DNA from: Bdellovibrio bacteriovorus W
GTDB taxonomy: Bacteria > Bdellovibrionota > Bdellovibrionia > Bdellovibrionales > Bdellovibrionaceae
NCBI GenBank assembly: GCA_000525675.1
Contig: CP002190.1
Coordinates: forward strand, 1,736,001-1,800,000
Length of the DNA stretch: 64,000 bases
Direction of reading: 5' to 3'
Position numbers and translations under genes: made by a program. Positions 19,425 to 35,084 of the stretch are shown here, piece after piece. The notes under the pieces are model-generated. The model was not told where the DNA came from. It was given only the letters and a program-made list of their open reading frames with translations, and did no database searches. Numbering within the stretch: the stretch's first letter is position 1; each line of letters opens with the position of its first letter.

Positions 19425-20303
19425 ATGAAATCAGTTCTAGGAAAGATTTTATCTTTAGCCATTGCCACGACAACACTTGTCCCTCTGCAAGGATTTGCTC
19501 AGCAGCCATATCCAAGCTCGTGGGAATACGAAACAAGTCTTAGCTATTCCAATCAAGAAATGGACTGGATCAAGTTCGGTCTTATGAGCTCGGTGATTGT
19601 CTTTACTTCTGAGCGTGAAATGCTCCAGTTTGTTCAAAAAAACGATGGCCAAGTGACTGATAGAGCCGCCAACGCGGGTGAGTATTTTGGCTCTCGTAAA
19701 ATGGTTCCAGTGATGGGGGCTGCTTACGTCTTAGGGATGGTTATGAATGAAGCTGGTATGTCGCGCATGGCAGTTCTGAGCTTTAAAGCAGGCATCATCA
19801 ATACTCTCATTAATGACTCTTTAAAACAAACCTTCCGCCGAGCTCTACCAAGAGAAACAGACGATCCTTTCAGAGAAACTCGCTCTGATGGAGCTCCCTC
19901 GATGGGAATGCCGTCAGGGCATACTTCGTTTGCCTTTTCAGTCGCCACTGTCATCGCGGAGGTCGCAAGGGAAGAATATGACTCGACGGCGATCCCCGTT
20001 CTTGCCTATGGTGCTGCGGCTCTCACGGCATGGTCTCGCGTATACCAGAACCAACACTGGGCCTCTGACGTTCTTATTGGTGCTATCGTTGGTCACTTTT
20101 CCGCAAAACTTGCGATGTCCTCAGAACGAGAAGAATCTGGCAATTTGCGTGTAAGAATTTATCCCTACTATGGACCAAATCGCTCTGTCGGTGTGATGAT
20201 GTCTATCTCCGAGAAAACTCCGAAAGGAGTTGTCTGCAGACCTGAGGAGCAAGGTAGTTCGCATTGTATTGAAAAAGTTTTTGATAAGTACTTTAAGAAA
20301 TAG
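19425..20303 (+). CDS. Exported PAP2-family (phosphatidic acid phosphatase type) protein
   Basis: 292 residues with signal peptide (VPLQGFAQQ, ~26). The three PAP2 motifs are present: KQTFRRALPR (motif 1 with a Lys...Arg-Pro-like pattern), MPSGHTSFAF (motif 2, catalytic His) and SRVYQNQHWASDVLIG (motif 3, nucleophile His plus Asp). Likely a membrane-associated periplasmic lipid phosphatase, for example acting on undecaprenyl or phosphatidyl phosphates. The last ~26 residues (from KGVVCRPEEQ) form a tail that is found again as an isolated fragment at 34919-34990. Weak ribosome site. Confidence 0.88.
   Translation: MKSVLGKILSLAIATTTLVPLQGFAQQPYPSSWEYETSLSYSNQEMDWIKFGLMSSVIVFTSEREMLQFVQKNDGQVTDRAANAGEYFGSRKMVPVMGAAYVLGMVMNEAGMSRMAVLSFKAGIINTLINDSLKQTFRRALPRETDDPFRETRSDGAPSMGMPSGHTSFAFSVATVIAEVAREEYDSTAIPVLAYGAAALTAWSRVYQNQHWASDVLIGAIVGHFSAKLAMSSEREESGNLRVRIYPYYGPNRSVGVMMSISEKTPKGVVCRPEEQGSSHCIEKVFDKYFKK
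20223..20294 (+). repeat. 72-base segment duplicated at 34919-34990
   Basis: Codons 267-290 of the PAP2 gene. The other copy, inverted at 34.9 kb, differs at 8 of 72 bases; 7 of these are synonymous in the PAP2 frame and one changes Cys to Arg. Confidence 0.85.
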
Positions 20304-21201: not shown

Positions 21202-21893
21202 TTAATAAACAACATCGAGAATATAAACAATAAAATAAGACCAGAGCTGCATCATCTGAGTTTTCTTAGGCAGATGCGTTGTTCGATTGTGAGCGCGGCC
21301 ATTAGTGTCACGAACGATATGCGCTAATTGTTGTTCCAGAATATCTACTCGCCACTCAAGAACTTCATCAGCAATAGTTCTAAAACTAGCACGAACCCCG
21401 TGCGGCGAGTGAAGATCCACAAAGTTCTCAATACCAGAAATATCTTGATGAGCTCCATAGTATCCGATCAAAGATAGAGCTTTACGAAGAGAAGCATCAG
21501 AATAGGTTTGAAGTTTGAGGCTTCCAAAAATGAATGCCCCTGTAGTGATTGATTTTAGTTGCTGCAAGATCTCAAACACCTGCGAAGACAAAGGCACAAT
21601 TAGCGATTTCGATATAACTCCGCATAGTGCGTGAAAGACAATTGCGACTTGCCTTGGATATCTGAACCCAAAGCCAGCTCACGCGTTTCTTCGGCCCACT
21701 CTCTCGCAGCTTTTAAGCTCATCGTTGGATATTCGTCTCCATAAAAATGAACTACCTTTGTGCCCTTGCGGATGGAGAGTTGCCACTTCTTTTTCGTTTT
21801 ACTCACGCAAAGGAACAAACCATTGCCATCGGCGTACAGCTTAATTTTATCTGCATATCTGATGTTTCTAAGTTTAAGTTCAGTGAGTTTCAT
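21202..21893 (-). pseudogene. P4-type tyrosine integrase, internally deleted
   Basis: Two adjacent frames. 21893-21600 encodes the DUF4102 arm-binding domain (LTELKLRNIRYADKIKLYAD, GDEYPTMSLKAAREWAEETR). 21597-21202 encodes the C-terminal catalytic part (VPLSSQVFEILQQL, HGVRASFRTIADEVLEW with the HxxR, and EQQLAHIVRDTNGRAHNRT). The middle ~180 residues, including the core-binding domain and first catalytic Arg, are absent and a TAA lies at the junction. The final Tyr position shows THLPKK rather than the usual tyrosine context. It sits beyond the 3' end of tRNA-Leu, the standard location for this integrase class, so this is an integrative-element scar. Confidence 0.85.
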
Positions 21894-22101: not shown

Positions 22102-22188
22102 TGGTGCCCGGGACTGGACTTGAACCAGCACGCCCTTTCGAGCGCTACCACCTCAAGGTAGTGCGTCTGCCAATTTCGCCACCCGGGC
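22102..22188 (-). tRNA. tRNA-Leu(GAG)
   Basis: 87 bases including an encoded CCA. Acceptor stem GCCCGGG/CCCGGGC, discriminator A, anticodon stem CTACC/GGTAG with loop TTGAGGT, anticodon GAG at 22154-22152 (minus strand), a long variable arm as expected for leucine and TTCAAGT in the T loop. Its 3' end is the probable att site for the deleted integrase. Confidence 0.97.
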
Positions 22189-24874: not shown

Positions 24875-25285
24875 CTATTGTTGACTCACCTTTTTATAAA
24901 AATATTCGAGTTGAGTGGACTTGAAAAAAGTTGCATCAATTTTGAATATATTCCGCATCGATGAATATTCCAAAAACACCAATGATTCATCGCTCCCCTT
25001 GGCCTCAATTATAATTTCAAAGTCTACGCCATCCACCTCTTCAGCAGATATACGAGTTTCAAAAACAGCGGTACATAGAATCTGTTGATCATACTTGGAA
25101 ACTATTTTCGTTTTAGTCTGATAGAATTTTAAATCTTGCAGGTCCCGCGGGCACCAATTCCACGTCTCACCAGTTTTTCGATTTATATATTTCAAATACG
25201 GAATCACAGGAGTTTGTAAAATAACAAAAACAAGAGTAACACCTAGAGCGCATAAGGTGAAGGAGATCAAGGTCCTACGGGACAT
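24875..25285 (-). CDS. Small membrane-anchored protein with MSRRTL start
   Basis: 136 residues from ATG 25285, chosen because AAGAAAGGG lies before it and the helix begins here. N-terminal MSRRTL followed by a hydrophobic anchor (FTLCALGVTLVFVILQ), then a ~110-residue extracytoplasmic domain with two Cys (NWCPRD; ILCTAV) and no family I recognise. Its start overlaps the end of the preceding lipoprotein gene by 11 bases, indicating translational coupling. The Ig-repeat protein heading the operon begins with the same MSRRTL plus helix. Confidence 0.65.
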   Translation of the reverse strand: MSRRTLISFTLCALGVTLVFVILQTPVIPYLKYINRKTGETWNWCPRDLQDLKFYQTKTKIVSKYDQQILCTAVFETRISAEEVDGVDFEIIIEAKGSDESLVFLEYSSMRNIFKIDATFFKSTQLEYFYKKVSQQ

Positions 25286-25562
25286 AGTACCCTTTCTTAG
25301 TTCTAAGCCCCAGAAGAATAGATGTATGTGTTGCATAGACGGTGGCGTTGTTCTCGGTTTTCAACACGGAATCGCAAACTAAGCCGCCAGCCGAACCTTC
25401 TACTTGAAGCAAGCTCTCTTCAGTATACATTCTTGAGAATGGTGTTGTTGCTAAGGAAAAAGTATTTAAGGAGTTCTGATCTTTGGGCTCATAAATTTGA
25501 ACATCTAACATGCATCCAGACAAAACAATGAGGGCACTGAAATATAGAAATAGCTTTTTCAT
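25275..25562 (-). CDS. Small lipoprotein
   Basis: 95 residues. Lipobox VLSGC at ~13-17 after MKKLFLYFSALI. Acidic at +2 is absent (M), so outer-membrane sorting is likely by E. coli rules. The mature part has one further Cys (LVCDSV). Family unknown. It lies 12 bases after the fibre gene and overlaps the next gene, so it belongs to the surface operon and may be an assembly or secretion partner. Confidence 0.65.
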   Translation of the reverse strand: MKKLFLYFSALIVLSGCMLDVQIYEPKDQNSLNTFSLATTPFSRMYTEESLLQVEGSAGGLVCDSVLKTENNATVYATHTSILLGLRTKKGYYVP

Positions 25563-27568: not shown

Positions 27569-29167
27569 CTATCCTCGTCTACGCCGTCCTATAATAACAA
27601 ACAACGCCACTCCGCAAAGAATTGCCGCTAGAGCTATTGCTAAACTTTTTTGACTCCAAATAAATACCTCTGAACGAATAAATCCTGCCTTCTCCGCCAC
27701 CACTACAAAACTCTCTGTGAGACTTATTGGAACGCGAATCTCGCCTTTATGATCGGTAAATCCAATTGATTTTCCATTAATGAAAACTTCTGCATCAGCA
27801 ACTGACTTGCCCTCTATTCGATCTTTCACAAGTAAATTTCTAAACGAAGTTTTAAGCACCTGCAGCGCCGGCTGATCAAACTCTCCGGAGTAATACAAAA
27901 CTTCATCACCATCTTTTAGCGATAGATCTGAAACACATATTTCCGCATTTTTATTATTAATTTTGTAGTTCCAATTGCGCCCCATTGCCCCGTTTATATC
28001 GGTCAAAATAGTTCCATAGAGGTTGCGAATACTATAGCTAATGCCAGCCTTCTTTAGGGCCGCCATCACCGCAAGCAATGCTGTGGGTCTATCTTCGTAA
28101 ATGGGTTTTTCATCAAACGGATTGATATAGCTCTGAGGGACGACTTTTAACTCTTCAACCAGTGTAAATCCGTCCGGCCCCTCAATTCGCACTTTCACAA
28201 AAGGAGTTGACGTCGAGGCAACCAAGTCCTTCTTTCCCTCCCGCTTTTTCATCATAACGGGAACATTCGCGACCTCTGCATAACTTCGTCCCGCCAAAAA
28301 GGAAAGTCCATACACTGCAGAAGAGCAAGGATTATGCGCAACTCCCGCAGTTAGCAAAAACCCCCCATTATCACGTCTATAACCATTAATCTTTTGTAAG
28401 TGCCCAGACTTCTCGAAGTAGGGAAACTTCTTCGAGGATATATTTTCTAAATGAAGACGAGAAAGATATAGCAGATTCATCTGTGGGAGGTTTGTCTTCT
28501 TAGATGCTGCAAATGGATTTTCAATTTCCGTTTGAGAAAGAAACTCATAGGCTTTCCCTAACGCATGCTGCGGCCAATCTTGGGGCGGAATACTCATCAC
28601 CACCATTGCCGTTGAGTCTATATCAGAATTTAAGATCGGATTCGCGCCATAAGCCCAGCCTCCGTCTTTTTTCTGCTGTCGCAAAAGATAATCAATCAGC
28701 GCCTTTTTATCGATTCTGTCATCAAATTTTGCAGATAATAAAAGCCAATTGGCTTCAAAGTTTTTTCCATTTTCTTGAAAATCTTTTGATCTTATATACT
28801 TATTAATTTCTTCAACTTTTAAACCGTTCTTTTCTGTTGCGCCTATAATATAAGTACTAAAAACATAGAAGCCAAAATACTTCTTCACACTTTCAGGATC
28901 GTTATCCCTAACCCACTTTAGATAATCCACTGGTGATTTTCCATTCACGGTCCAATAGGCTGGATCTTCGCCATTCAGTCTCACTGCTAACAAAGCCTTG
29001 GCTGTGACAGATAGATTTGGTCGCTCGTAACTATTCCCCCACCCCCCTTCGATAGTTTGACACATTTTGAGATAGTCTTTAGTCATCTCTATATCTGTCG
29101 CGGCCGAAGATACATTCAATTTTAAAATTAAAATACCAACGATAAATAATCTCTTAGTTATCTTCAT
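27569..29167 (-). CDS. Transcobalamin/intrinsic-factor-like membrane-anchored protein
   Basis: 532 residues. Signal peptide ends VSSAA (~23). Residues ~25-310 carry three prenyltransferase/squalene-cyclase-type repeats (EGGWGNSYERPNLSVTAKAL, KKDGGWAYGANP and RRDNGGFLLTAGVAHNPCSS), predicting an alpha/alpha toroid. Residues ~318-430 look like DUF4430, the transcobalamin C-terminal-like domain (NWNYKINNKNAE, LKDGDEVLYYSGEF). A PEGA-like beta unit (SVADAEVFINGKSIGF) follows, then a C-terminal helix and RRRRG. Toroid plus this C-terminal domain is the layout of animal intrinsic factor and transcobalamin and of some bacterial cobalamin binders. With a TonB receptor in the same operon, corrinoid capture is the best hypothesis; other ligands remain possible. 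Confidence 0.65.
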   Translation of the reverse strand: MKITKRLFIVGILILKLNVSSAATDIEMTKDYLKMCQTIEGGWGNSYERPNLSVTAKALLAVRLNGEDPAYWTVNGKSPVDYLKWVRDNDPESVKKYFGFYVFSTYIIGATEKNGLKVEEINKYIRSKDFQENGKNFEANWLLLSAKFDDRIDKKALIDYLLRQQKKDGGWAYGANPILNSDIDSTAMVVMSIPPQDWPQHALGKAYEFLSQTEIENPFAASKKTNLPQMNLLYLSRLHLENISSKKFPYFEKSGHLQKINGYRRDNGGFLLTAGVAHNPCSSAVYGLSFLAGRSYAEVANVPVMMKKREGKKDLVASTSTPFVKVRIEGPDGFTLVEELKVVPQSYINPFDEKPIYEDRPTALLAVMAALKKAGISYSIRNLYGTILTDINGAMGRNWNYKINNKNAEICVSDLSLKDGDEVLYYSGEFDQPALQVLKTSFRNLLVKDRIEGKSVADAEVFINGKSIGFTDHKGEIRVPISLTESFVVVAEKAGFIRSEVFIWSQKSLAIALAAILCGVALFVIIGRRRRG

Positions 29168-29176
29168 TCGACCTCG

Positions 29177-31423
29177 CTAACTACACGTACAATTGCAAGT
29201 TGTTACACTACCCGTTTTCCCATGTACTGTGGAGCAAGATGTTAATGTACCAGCTCCGCTCGAACATATACTTGCGAAAGGACACGACACCCCTGTACTA
29301 ACATAGCCATTGATACGAGAATTTCCAGGGCACATTGCCGTTGAGTTATTACTGGCGTTACACCTTTTCCAAGTGTAAGTACCAGGTGTACTTTGATTCC
29401 CAGCAACGTCTAGTGAAATTACAGAAAATGTATTACTCCCCACCACTGCTGAAACAGCAACGCCTGAGGTACATCCAGCGAATGCACCTGCATTCACTTT
29501 ACATTGAAAACCTGCCAAACCAGATAATGAATCCGAACCCGTAAAAGAAAAATTTGGCGAAGCCAACGAGCTATGAGCACTTGGATATGAAGTAATTGCT
29601 ACCGAAGGCGCTCCCGTATCATACAACCTCACCAAATTCGCAGCCGCTGTATTACCATTTCCTGCTGCATCTATAGCAACCCCTGCTCCCACTGAAACTG
29701 TCACATTTCCCTGTGCTGAAGGCGTTACAAGAAACGTGTAGGTTGATGAGCTCACAGCATTGAATGTGCCAGCAGTGCCATTGGCGACTTGAATATCCCC
29801 CAACGAAAAACCTGTCACTGCCTCTGAAAACTCCGCAGTCACGGTAAAGTTAGCAGCGCGAAATGCACTACCAATGGGCGTCGATAAGGATAAACTTGGC
29901 GAGATACTATCAAAAACTCGAGTCAAATTAGAAGCAATGACATTTCCGTTCCCCGCCAAATCAAAAGCGACCCCCGCAGGAACACCGACAACAACATTTC
30001 CTTGCGCTAATGGTGTGATCGTAAAAGTATAGACCTCACCACTACCTGCAAAGTTAGACAGAGTTCCATTTGAAAGTGCGACTCCTGCAGCGTTGAATCC
30101 AGATACTGGTTCCGAAAAAACAACCGTTACAACAAAGCCCCCTGAGTTAAAATGGCTTGCTATAGGGCTTGAAAGGATAACAGTTGGAGGAGTGTTATCA
30201 AAAGTCCTTTGCAACTCATTCGCCGCAGTATTCGAATTTCCTGCTGCATCTTCAGCAACTGCAGGCGGGACATTAACTTTGACAACTCCTTGTCCTGATG
30301 GAGTTACAATAAAACTATAGCTAAACCCATTTCCTGAAAAACCAGTGACTGTGCCATTTGTAATAACCAGATCTGAGGAGTCAAAACCAAATACATCTTC
30401 TGAAAACGTCGCGACGACAGTAAAGCTTGGTGAACTAAACGGATCTCCAGTCGAAGTACTCAGAGTCAAGCTCGGCGGAACAGTATCATAGATACGATTT
30501 AGACTTGAAGTGATGTTCCCATTGCCTGCTCTGTCAAATGCAACATGATCGGGCACTTTGACTTCAACACTTCCCTGCCCATGAGGAGTAATCGTAAAAG
30601 AGAAATTTGTTCCGTCACCTGAAAACCCACTTATGGAACCATTCGTTACGACAACATCGGATTCTGAAAAATCTGTTACCACCTCAGAAAACTGCGCCAA
30701 AACCAAAAAATCTGCACTATTAAATGAGTTCTTTACTGCCGAACTTAAAGAAAGGCTCGGCCGAACGCTGTCAAAAGTTCTAGATAAGACAGGCGACTGC
30801 TTATTTCCATTACCTGCCAAGTCAGTGATAACGTCCGCAGGAATTGCAACTGTCACAAGCCCTTGAGCAGCCGGAGTCACGAGAACCTTATACCTCGTAG
30901 GCCCACCACTTAAGGCTGAAGCAGTTCCATTCGTGACAACTATATCTTCTATTGAAAATCCAATGATTGCTTCTGAAAAATCAACAAGAACTTCGAAATT
31001 ACTCGCACTAAAGTAATCCGCCACTTCCGAGCTCAAAGCAACTTCTGGGGCGTCAGTATCAATCAAAATCGAAGCCGATAAAACCTTGCTAAATAAATTG
31101 AACTCATTCTTAGCGACAACGCTTAATACCAGCTCTCCACTTGCCCACGGAACAATAAAAGGGGATTCGCAGTCTATATAAGCGCCACCATTCACACTGC
31201 ACTGAATAGAAGAAATGGGCGCACCATTATCCCTTGAAACAGAAAACTCAAATATATGAGTCATAGAGTTCGTCGGACTTTGCGGCAAACTTACCCACTC
31301 TACTTTTGGAGCGGGACCAGAAATCATATATTTCCAAAATGCACCAAGGTTATAATATGCCGCTACAATTCCAGCTGGTAGGAATAACGATACGCAGACT
31401 ATAAGCAATGTCCTTCGGGACAT
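29177..31423 (-). CDS. Ig-like repeat surface protein heading the operon
   Basis: 748 residues from ATG 31423, which has AGGAGG 6 bases upstream (an in-frame start eight codons earlier lacks this). N-terminal MSRRTL and a hydrophobic anchor are followed by a short Ig-like segment and five ~95-residue repeats with the pattern FSExVxGF, VTNGT, VTPxxQG, AGNGN and a closing (R)xYD/FD. These are bacterial Ig-like domains often called Big_12-like. A sixth, different Ig-like unit and a Cys-rich tail (CPGNSR, CSSGAG, CNCTCS) end the protein. Likely an extended cell-surface or periplasmic stalk. Next gene follows after 9 bases. Confidence 0.75.
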   Translation of the reverse strand: MSRRTLLIVCVSLFLPAGIVAAYYNLGAFWKYMISGPAPKVEWVSLPQSPTNSMTHIFEFSVSRDNGAPISSIQCSVNGGAYIDCESPFIVPWASGELVLSVVAKNEFNLFSKVLSASILIDTDAPEVALSSEVADYFSASNFEVLVDFSEAIIGFSIEDIVVTNGTASALSGGPTRYKVLVTPAAQGLVTVAIPADVITDLAGNGNKQSPVLSRTFDSVRPSLSLSSAVKNSFNSADFLVLAQFSEVVTDFSESDVVVTNGSISGFSGDGTNFSFTITPHGQGSVEVKVPDHVAFDRAGNGNITSSLNRIYDTVPPSLTLSTSTGDPFSSPSFTVVATFSEDVFGFDSSDLVITNGTVTGFSGNGFSYSFIVTPSGQGVVKVNVPPAVAEDAAGNSNTAANELQRTFDNTPPTVILSSPIASHFNSGGFVVTVVFSEPVSGFNAAGVALSNGTLSNFAGSGEVYTFTITPLAQGNVVVGVPAGVAFDLAGNGNVIASNLTRVFDSISPSLSLSTPIGSAFRAANFTVTAEFSEAVTGFSLGDIQVANGTAGTFNAVSSSTYTFLVTPSAQGNVTVSVGAGVAIDAAGNGNTAAANLVRLYDTGAPSVAITSYPSAHSSLASPNFSFTGSDSLSGLAGFQCKVNAGAFAGCTSGVAVSAVVGSNTFSVISLDVAGNQSTPGTYTWKRCNASNNSTAMCPGNSRINGYVSTGVSCPFASICSSGAGTLTSCSTVHGKTGSVTTCNCTCS

Positions 31424-31687
31424 TTCTCCTCCTCGAAAAACGTACAAGCAGTTTCAGTCGCTTATTTTTAAGGATACATAGATAGACTTTAAGAGTCTAG
31501 AGACGAGAGACCTTAGTCTTTCCAGGAAAATGTAAGAGTCGCACACATTAGGCTAAATATAAACTTTATTCAGAATATATCGTCGCCATCGCGCACTTAT
31601 TCATATTGAGTATTATCAATTCAGTTGGGTACTCATTTTGAAAATATTTTTTAAACAGAAAACGGACTATTTCGAGATATTTAATTT
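31424..31687. other. 5' region of the surface operon
   Basis: No gene seen. AT-rich stretches before the AGGAGG of the operon's first gene. A GATAAT with degenerate neighbours (minus strand, ~31600-31620) only loosely resembles a Fur box. No cobalamin-riboswitch B12-box was recognised. Confidence 0.3.
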
Positions 31688-34918: not shown

Positions 34919-34990
34919 GAAATACTTATCGAAAACTTTTTCAATACAATGAGAGCTGCCTTGCTCCTCGGGTCTGCGGACAACTCCTTT
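34919..34990 (-). pseudogene. Isolated duplicate of the PAP2 C-terminal tail
   Basis: 24 codons match residues 267-290 of the PAP2 protein at 19425-20303. Of 8 base differences 7 are synonymous. Sequence similarity stops abruptly on both sides. It is probably the relic of a former paralogous gene that was under protein-level selection until recently. Confidence 0.75.
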
Positions 34991-35084
34991 CAATGACTGT
35001 AGAATTCAGAATACTCTATTGAATGAGCCCGGCACAGCAAAGTCACTACTGCCAATCCCTAGTCTGAGCTAAATCTGATGCACT

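Follow-up and report, generated by a model that had tools for sequence, protein, structure and literature searches.

A putative membrane protein with a toroid and a transcobalamin-like domain in a fibre gene run of Bdellovibrio bacteriovorus W: a possible anchored corrinoid binder

Within a 64,000-nucleotide stretch of the Bdellovibrio bacteriovorus W genome (3.007 Mb), hereafter the window (contig CP002190.1, positions 1,736,001 to 1,800,000), a run of genes on one strand encodes a protein in which an alpha/alpha toroid precedes a DUF4430 domain and a C-terminal hydrophobic helix, together with a mosaic adhesive trimer (MAT) fibre and a TonB-dependent receptor whose closest relative found follows cobalamin riboswitches (Table 1). 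This combination suggests a set of genes with which vitamin B12 is obtained from prey. Our preferred reading, to which we give an even chance, is that the toroid protein binds corrinoids in the periplasm as an anchored partner of a corrinoid TonB receptor and is carried in a predation-fibre cassette. The protein would be exported and anchored through its C-terminal helix in the inner membrane, facing the periplasm; the corrinoid would cross the outer membrane through the TonB receptor and then be taken by the anchored binder, with the toroid and the beta-grasp domain closing on the ligand as in transcobalamin. The presence of a MAT fibre and a lipoprotein in the same run would fit the scavenging of corrinoid from prey. 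The domains are observed directly, as is the presence of the AdoCbl-dependent enzyme IcmF in the genome; the topology, the ligand, the hand-over and any functional link to the fibre we infer.

Table 1. Features of the gene run, in positions of the window
Feature	Position	Strand	Basis or remark
Toroid + DUF4430 putative membrane-anchored protein, whole ORF	27569..29167	-	532 aa, ATG start
Signal-like N-terminus, residues 1-22	29102..29167	-	Hydropathy 1.61 at residue 8
Alpha/alpha toroid, about residues 23-300, QW-like units at 41, 168, 266	28268..29101	-	PF13249 above cut-off; model and fold comparison
DUF4430 (transcobalamin-like beta-grasp), about residues 320-432; Pfam match 367-425	27872..28210	-	Profile matches; low-confidence strand/helix order
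Small beta domain, match at residues 456-493	27689..27802	-	TcaA_3rd_4th, below cut-off; not PEGA
C-terminal hydrophobic helix 509-527 and RRRRG tail	27572..27643	-	Hydropathy (KD 2.9)
Ig-like (Big_12) surface protein, upstream, 9 bp from toroid gene	29177..31447	-	Likely start ATG at 31423
MAT fibre gene, 631 aa	25575..27470	-	NF053851 118.7 bits, cut-off 60
Small lipoprotein of MAT-accompanying family	25275..25562	-	Family comparison
153-aa protein	24875..25336	-	No family match
TonB-dependent receptor, 734 aa	22554..24758	-	48% identical to pGLOV01 receptor

Domains, fold and homologues of the toroid protein

The original prediction had described three QW-like units, an alpha/alpha toroid and a C-terminal helix ending in RRRRG, and all of these were recovered: the units read GGW, DGGW and DNGGF in order, the helix and its tail are present, and PF13249 (squalene-hopene-cyclase-type) scored 28.5 bits against a cut-off of 26.2 in a Pfam scan of the protein, with the fold comparison in agreement. 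The predicted DUF4430 domain was borne out in part, since it scored 25.3 bits in a six-frame genome search, above the cut-off of 23.8, but only 20.7 bits (E 6e-4) in the whole protein, slightly below that cut-off, and 22.9 bits in the C-terminal piece alone. An 87% profile match across 31 columns links the domain to the DUF4430 of a Clostridia protein; it showed no profile similarity (probability 0.4%) to the host genome's own stand-alone DUF4430 protein. The small beta domain between DUF4430 and the C-terminal helix had been taken for an extra PEGA-like unit, a proposal that we abandon, as PEGA gave no match there at E<=1; its best matches, all below cut-off, were to TcaA_3rd_4th (24.6 bits, cut-off 27) and CILP. 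The five Pfam matches of the whole protein at E<=1 do not include Cobalamin_bind, which we take to be the family of animal intrinsic factor and transcobalamin. An enzyme of the terpene-cyclase type was considered and rejected: the DxDD motif, a mark of squalene and terpene cyclases, is found in neither of the two Bdellovibrio homologues, and the scores were 17-19 bits against cut-offs above 300.

A first structure model, built from three sequences, had a mean pLDDT of 42 and was discarded. A second one, covering residues 23-436 and built from four sequences, had a mean pLDDT of 56, with values of about 70-90 over the greater part of the toroid's first 190 residues and below 50 in the DUF4430 part. 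The modelled strand/helix order of the latter, E-E-H-E-E-E, matches that expected of a beta-grasp domain, at a pLDDT too low to infer a cleft. In Foldseek the leading hits were terpene cyclases; intrinsic factor came eighth (E 9.7e-4, 429 columns), and the 50 best hits also included transcobalamin and haptocorrin. VIA-align rendered Z scores of 17.1 for squalene-hopene cyclase, 15.0 for haptocorrin (rmsd 3.8, 248 residues), 14.8 for transcobalamin (rmsd 10.9, 296 residues) and 14.6 for intrinsic factor (rmsd 11.7, 296 residues). The toroid is thus firm, but its fold does not point to B12 carriers in particular, which are equalled or outscored by terpene cyclases and by toroids that act on sugars. 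A search of solved structures with the sequence profile gave nothing below E 0.04. Two cysteines, one close to the first QW unit and the other towards the toroid's end, are kept in both homologues, 245 and 250 residues apart. In rat transcobalamin, Cys21 and Cys268 are 247 apart (PMC11107200), and this closeness in spacing may be taken as a hint only.

The toroid protein is rare: it was found in 2 of 66 genomes of the family and 2 of 143 of the class, its own genome included. The sole other family genome with a homologue (G019) belongs to the same genus and carries the gene on a contig of 9,590 bases. The two proteins are 28% identical overall (BLAST E 3.4e-30), 26.4% in the toroid and 23.9% in DUF4430; a profile scan of the second homologue for DUF4430 gave no match. 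Shuffled copies run through the same aligner reached a mean identity of 23.6% and a maximum of 27.4% (40 shuffles); the 28% identity carries little weight alone, and homology rests on the BLAST E-values. A profile search gave matches in 6 of the 368 genomes of the phylum, among which four matches within the genus cover the C-terminal beta stretch alone, in other lipoproteins, and were dropped. A contig scan rendered eight loci: the second Bdellovibrio homologue, one Clostridia toroid and DUF4430 protein, whose gene shares an operon with those for CbiQ, a double ABC ATPase and an ECF S component, and six with a toroid-like sequence in which, read by eye, DUF4430 was not seen. Neither the viral contigs scanned nor the plasmid records contained a match to the toroid protein.

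It could be that the toroid and beta-grasp pair is a divergent scaffold without a ligand, as the low identity of the homologues, the borderline DUF4430 scores and the very patchy distribution would allow. We regard this as quite improbable: the reading frames are intact in both genomes, and the QW-like units and the cysteine pair have been kept.

Separately, DUF4430 as such matched in 62 of 368 Bdellovibrionota genomes at E<=0.01, in 31 of them above cut-off, and stand-alone DUF4430 proteins, mostly of about 150-185 aa, are commoner than the toroid fusion (e.g. L001:1264-1719 and L040-L068, of about 155 aa). The contig of the second homologue (L005:66-3693) also encodes a radical SAM/SPASM enzyme close to RiPP maturases, a weak match to an HprK-related kinase and a signal-peptidase-like protein, perhaps a peptide-modification cassette.

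The gene run, the MAT fibre and its accompanying lipoprotein

The gene order was observed directly: from 31.4 down to 22.5 kb, the Ig-like protein, the toroid protein, the MAT fibre, the small lipoprotein, the 153-aa protein and the TonB receptor follow one another on one strand; the original prediction mentions neither the fibre nor the lipoprotein nor the receptor. A pattern scan for promoters and terminators, which overall performed at chance level, found no minus-strand terminator-like site between these genes. The fibre gene product has the conserved N-terminal domain of MAT proteins, described in PMC10769870 as trimeric chimeric fibres for prey recognition by Bdellovibrio. The host genome contains seven MAT N-domains, and at six of these seven loci the toroid gene is absent within the stretch read. 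The contig of the second homologue bears neither a MAT gene nor a TonB receptor.

The small lipoprotein belongs to a family with 60 matches in 23 of the 24 genomes of the genus (the window copy and, among others, L032:3996-4325, L033:4378-4635, L034:4112-4393 and members at loci L116-L152). A MAT N-domain was present in 28 of the 37 lipoprotein regions fetched, compared with 0 of 58 control loci (370 ORFs), which were often shorter (about 3 kb) and one of which (L039) overlaps the window. The 37 regions cover 38 of the 60 matches, mostly the best-scoring, so that weaker matches are under-represented; the count does not include the four host-genome copies from which the model was built, nor the one that lies close to the toroid gene in G019, and in 7 of the 37 the lipoprotein frame itself was uncalled. 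Among the nine regions counted as lacking MAT, at least two end at a contig edge near the gene (L116, L123), and another (L133) has a long fibre-like frame not matched by the N-domain model. The lipoprotein, met with alongside MAT fibres in genomes across the genus, is possibly a fibre partner and provides a separate, readily testable lead on how the fibres are placed.

These observations bear on the main alternative, that the toroid protein is an accessory of the MAT cassette which binds a surface ligand of prey or self (glycan or peptide) or places the fibre, its B12-like layout reflecting ancestry alone. The toroid gene shares its run with a MAT gene and lies near a lipoprotein whose family accompanies MAT; the second homologue, in another genome, is also near a lipoprotein of that family, and other toroids retrieved in the fold comparison are sugar-active. 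On the other hand, the toroid gene is missing at most MAT loci of its own genome, the second homologue is on a contig without MAT, where a gene read by eye as PAP2-like stands between it and the lipoprotein, on the other strand, and this explanation leaves the corrinoid-type receptor unaccounted for. We consider it rather unlikely.

Several features of the surroundings were also recorded. A 72-base inverted repeat, 90% complementary (20222-20293 and 34920-34991), flanks a 14.6-kb stretch with the whole cluster, one arm being the end of a phosphatase-like gene and the other a fragment of the same gene. A tRNA-Leu adjoins a 131-aa frame that resembles by eye the end of a tyrosine integrase (21202-21597, 22102-22188) and had no Pfam match; together they are perhaps an island boundary. 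An IS3-like transposase pair lies at 16598-17541 (HTH_21 and rve in the window copy), with an apparent second copy at L138:1055-2301; the frame starts of both copies read alike, and the second frame of the window copy is shorter.

The TonB-dependent receptor and the B12 economy of the host

The relationship of the receptor to that of plasmid pGLOV01 of Trichlorobacter lovleyi SZ is a direct observation, extending over 712 residues. The pGLOV01 receptor was the best relative among 72,556 plasmid records, the other seven records found being below 25% identity, and it scored 655 bits, compared with at most 110 for four other receptors of the host genome and seven of the genus. The receptor is absent from the other 23 genomes of the genus at E<=1e-30, while TonB plugs are present in 23 of the 24. 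The pGLOV01 receptor gene is preceded by two tandem cobalamin riboswitches (Rfam; 107.3 and 65.5 bits), the second of which ends 15 bases before the receptor CDS, and cobT, bzaF, a methyltransferase gene, cobN and TonB/ExbB/ExbD genes are nearby. In PMC3403914 the cluster is predicted to transport siderophores, B12 or corrinoid precursors, and the word riboswitch does not appear in the main text. The two riboswitches (L153:19424-19615 and 19716-19890) may amount to a double-aptamer control.

The best NCBIfam classes of the window receptor were siderophore (207.9 bits) and hemin (206.2 bits), all below cut-off, and against BtuB (TIGR01779) it scored 170.3 bits, short of the equivalog cut-off of 599.7. 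The pGLOV01 receptor also falls below the BtuB model (203.5 bits) and scores best with the hemin and siderophore models; since a riboswitch-linked receptor favours these models too, they do not decide. The relationship to pGLOV01, which is independent of the toroid protein, points to corrinoids as the probable substrate of the window receptor. It could be argued from the sub-cut-off class scores that receptor and toroid protein serve the uptake of a different tetrapyrrole or metal complex, e.g. heme or a siderophore, and Burroughs et al. (PMC1796856) allow for other metabolites in B12-making archaea. We find this improbable, given that the closest receptor relative found follows cobalamin riboswitches and that the heme ABC locus of the host already has its own TonB receptor.

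An AdoCbl-dependent IcmF (1777.6 bits, cut-off 1500) is present in the host genome, and proteins with a B12-binding domain (PF02310) occur in all 24 genomes of the genus. The sole FecCD permease of the host genome (G000:C1:2112295-2113248, L070) is in a heme-type ABC locus whose ATPase passes the heme-transporter cut-off, with a TonB receptor of its own alongside; a BtuB-like receptor of 605 aa, below the model cut-off, lies elsewhere. The window has no cobalamin riboswitch at gathering score; a permissive scan of 22.0-34.2 kb returned a tRNA and a chance miRNA match alone, and one of 24.6-25.4 kb gave matches all far below cut-offs. Under strict filters the 24 genomes of the genus gave no cobalamin riboswitch, and at E<=0.001 one was found in 3 of 66 family genomes. 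As B12-binding-domain proteins are present in 24 of 24 genomes of the genus, the toroid protein in 2 and the receptor in 1, the toroid protein is not generally needed.

The corrinoid reading is weakened by the lack of a cobalamin riboswitch, the patchiness of the toroid gene and a second homologue without a TonB receptor, as well as by the receptor classes, the unspecific fold ranking and the low pLDDT of DUF4430. Independent support for it comes from the riboswitch-linked relative of the receptor and from the Clostridia protein of the ECF operon. A wider proposal, which we put forward as speculative and unlikely, is that predatory bacteria have exchangeable feeding cassettes in which prey recognition (MAT fibre and lipoprotein) is joined to the capture of a prey cofactor in short supply, a transcobalamin-like binder anchored in the predator membrane and a corrinoid TonB receptor being used while the predator is in the prey periplasm. 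If our preferred reading of an anchored corrinoid binder is true, the protein would be a membrane-anchored equivalent, in a Gram-negative bacterium, of intrinsic factor and transcobalamin, there would be a testable B12 route in a Bdellovibrio whose genome has an AdoCbl enzyme yet its sole FecCD in a heme locus, and prey-recognition fibres would be tied to nutrient capture.

Comparison with known systems

The intrinsic-factor layout and the membrane anchor of the original prediction both hold, but that layout had already been described in bacteria. Burroughs et al. (2007; PMC1796856) reported bacterial fusions of a toroid with a transcobalamin-like SLBB domain, in operons with CbiO/CbiQ, and predicted B12 scavenging. 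Theirs are exported and have an N-terminal toroid followed by a transcobalamin-like beta-grasp, as is probable for the window protein; they come mainly from Gram-positives and some archaea, often with CbiO/CbiQ and a Gram-positive anchor. The window protein differs in belonging to a Gram-negative predator and in having a C-terminal membrane helix and an extra beta domain, and its locus differs in having a MAT fibre and a TonB receptor and in lacking CbiO/CbiQ genes between 22.5 and 31.4 kb. The animal carriers intrinsic factor, transcobalamin and haptocorrin share with it the order and approximate size of the two domains and the toroid fold (Z 14.6-15.0), and have one cysteine pair of similar spacing, whereas they are soluble and only 8-13% identical to it in structural alignments.

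As in the Bdellovibrio MAT loci of PMC10769870, the window has a MAT N-domain gene in a gene run; the main text of that paper does not contain the terms lipoprotein, operon or accessory, and its passages on the loci describe no toroid partner. In pSZ77/pGLOV01 of Trichlorobacter (Geobacter) lovleyi (PMC3403914) the receptor is accompanied by cobN, TonB/ExbB/ExbD and riboswitches, none of which adjoin the window receptor. Judged from titles and the beginnings of abstracts, the papers found on DUF4430 and on Bdellovibrio with vitamin B12 and TonB-dependent transport do not treat this setting, apart from general background on B12 binders. Given the description by Burroughs et al. and the Clostridia CbiQ/ECF operon, the domain layout is therefore already known; what is new here is that the layout occurs in a predator, with an anchor and an extra domain, and beside a MAT gene and a corrinoid-type receptor.
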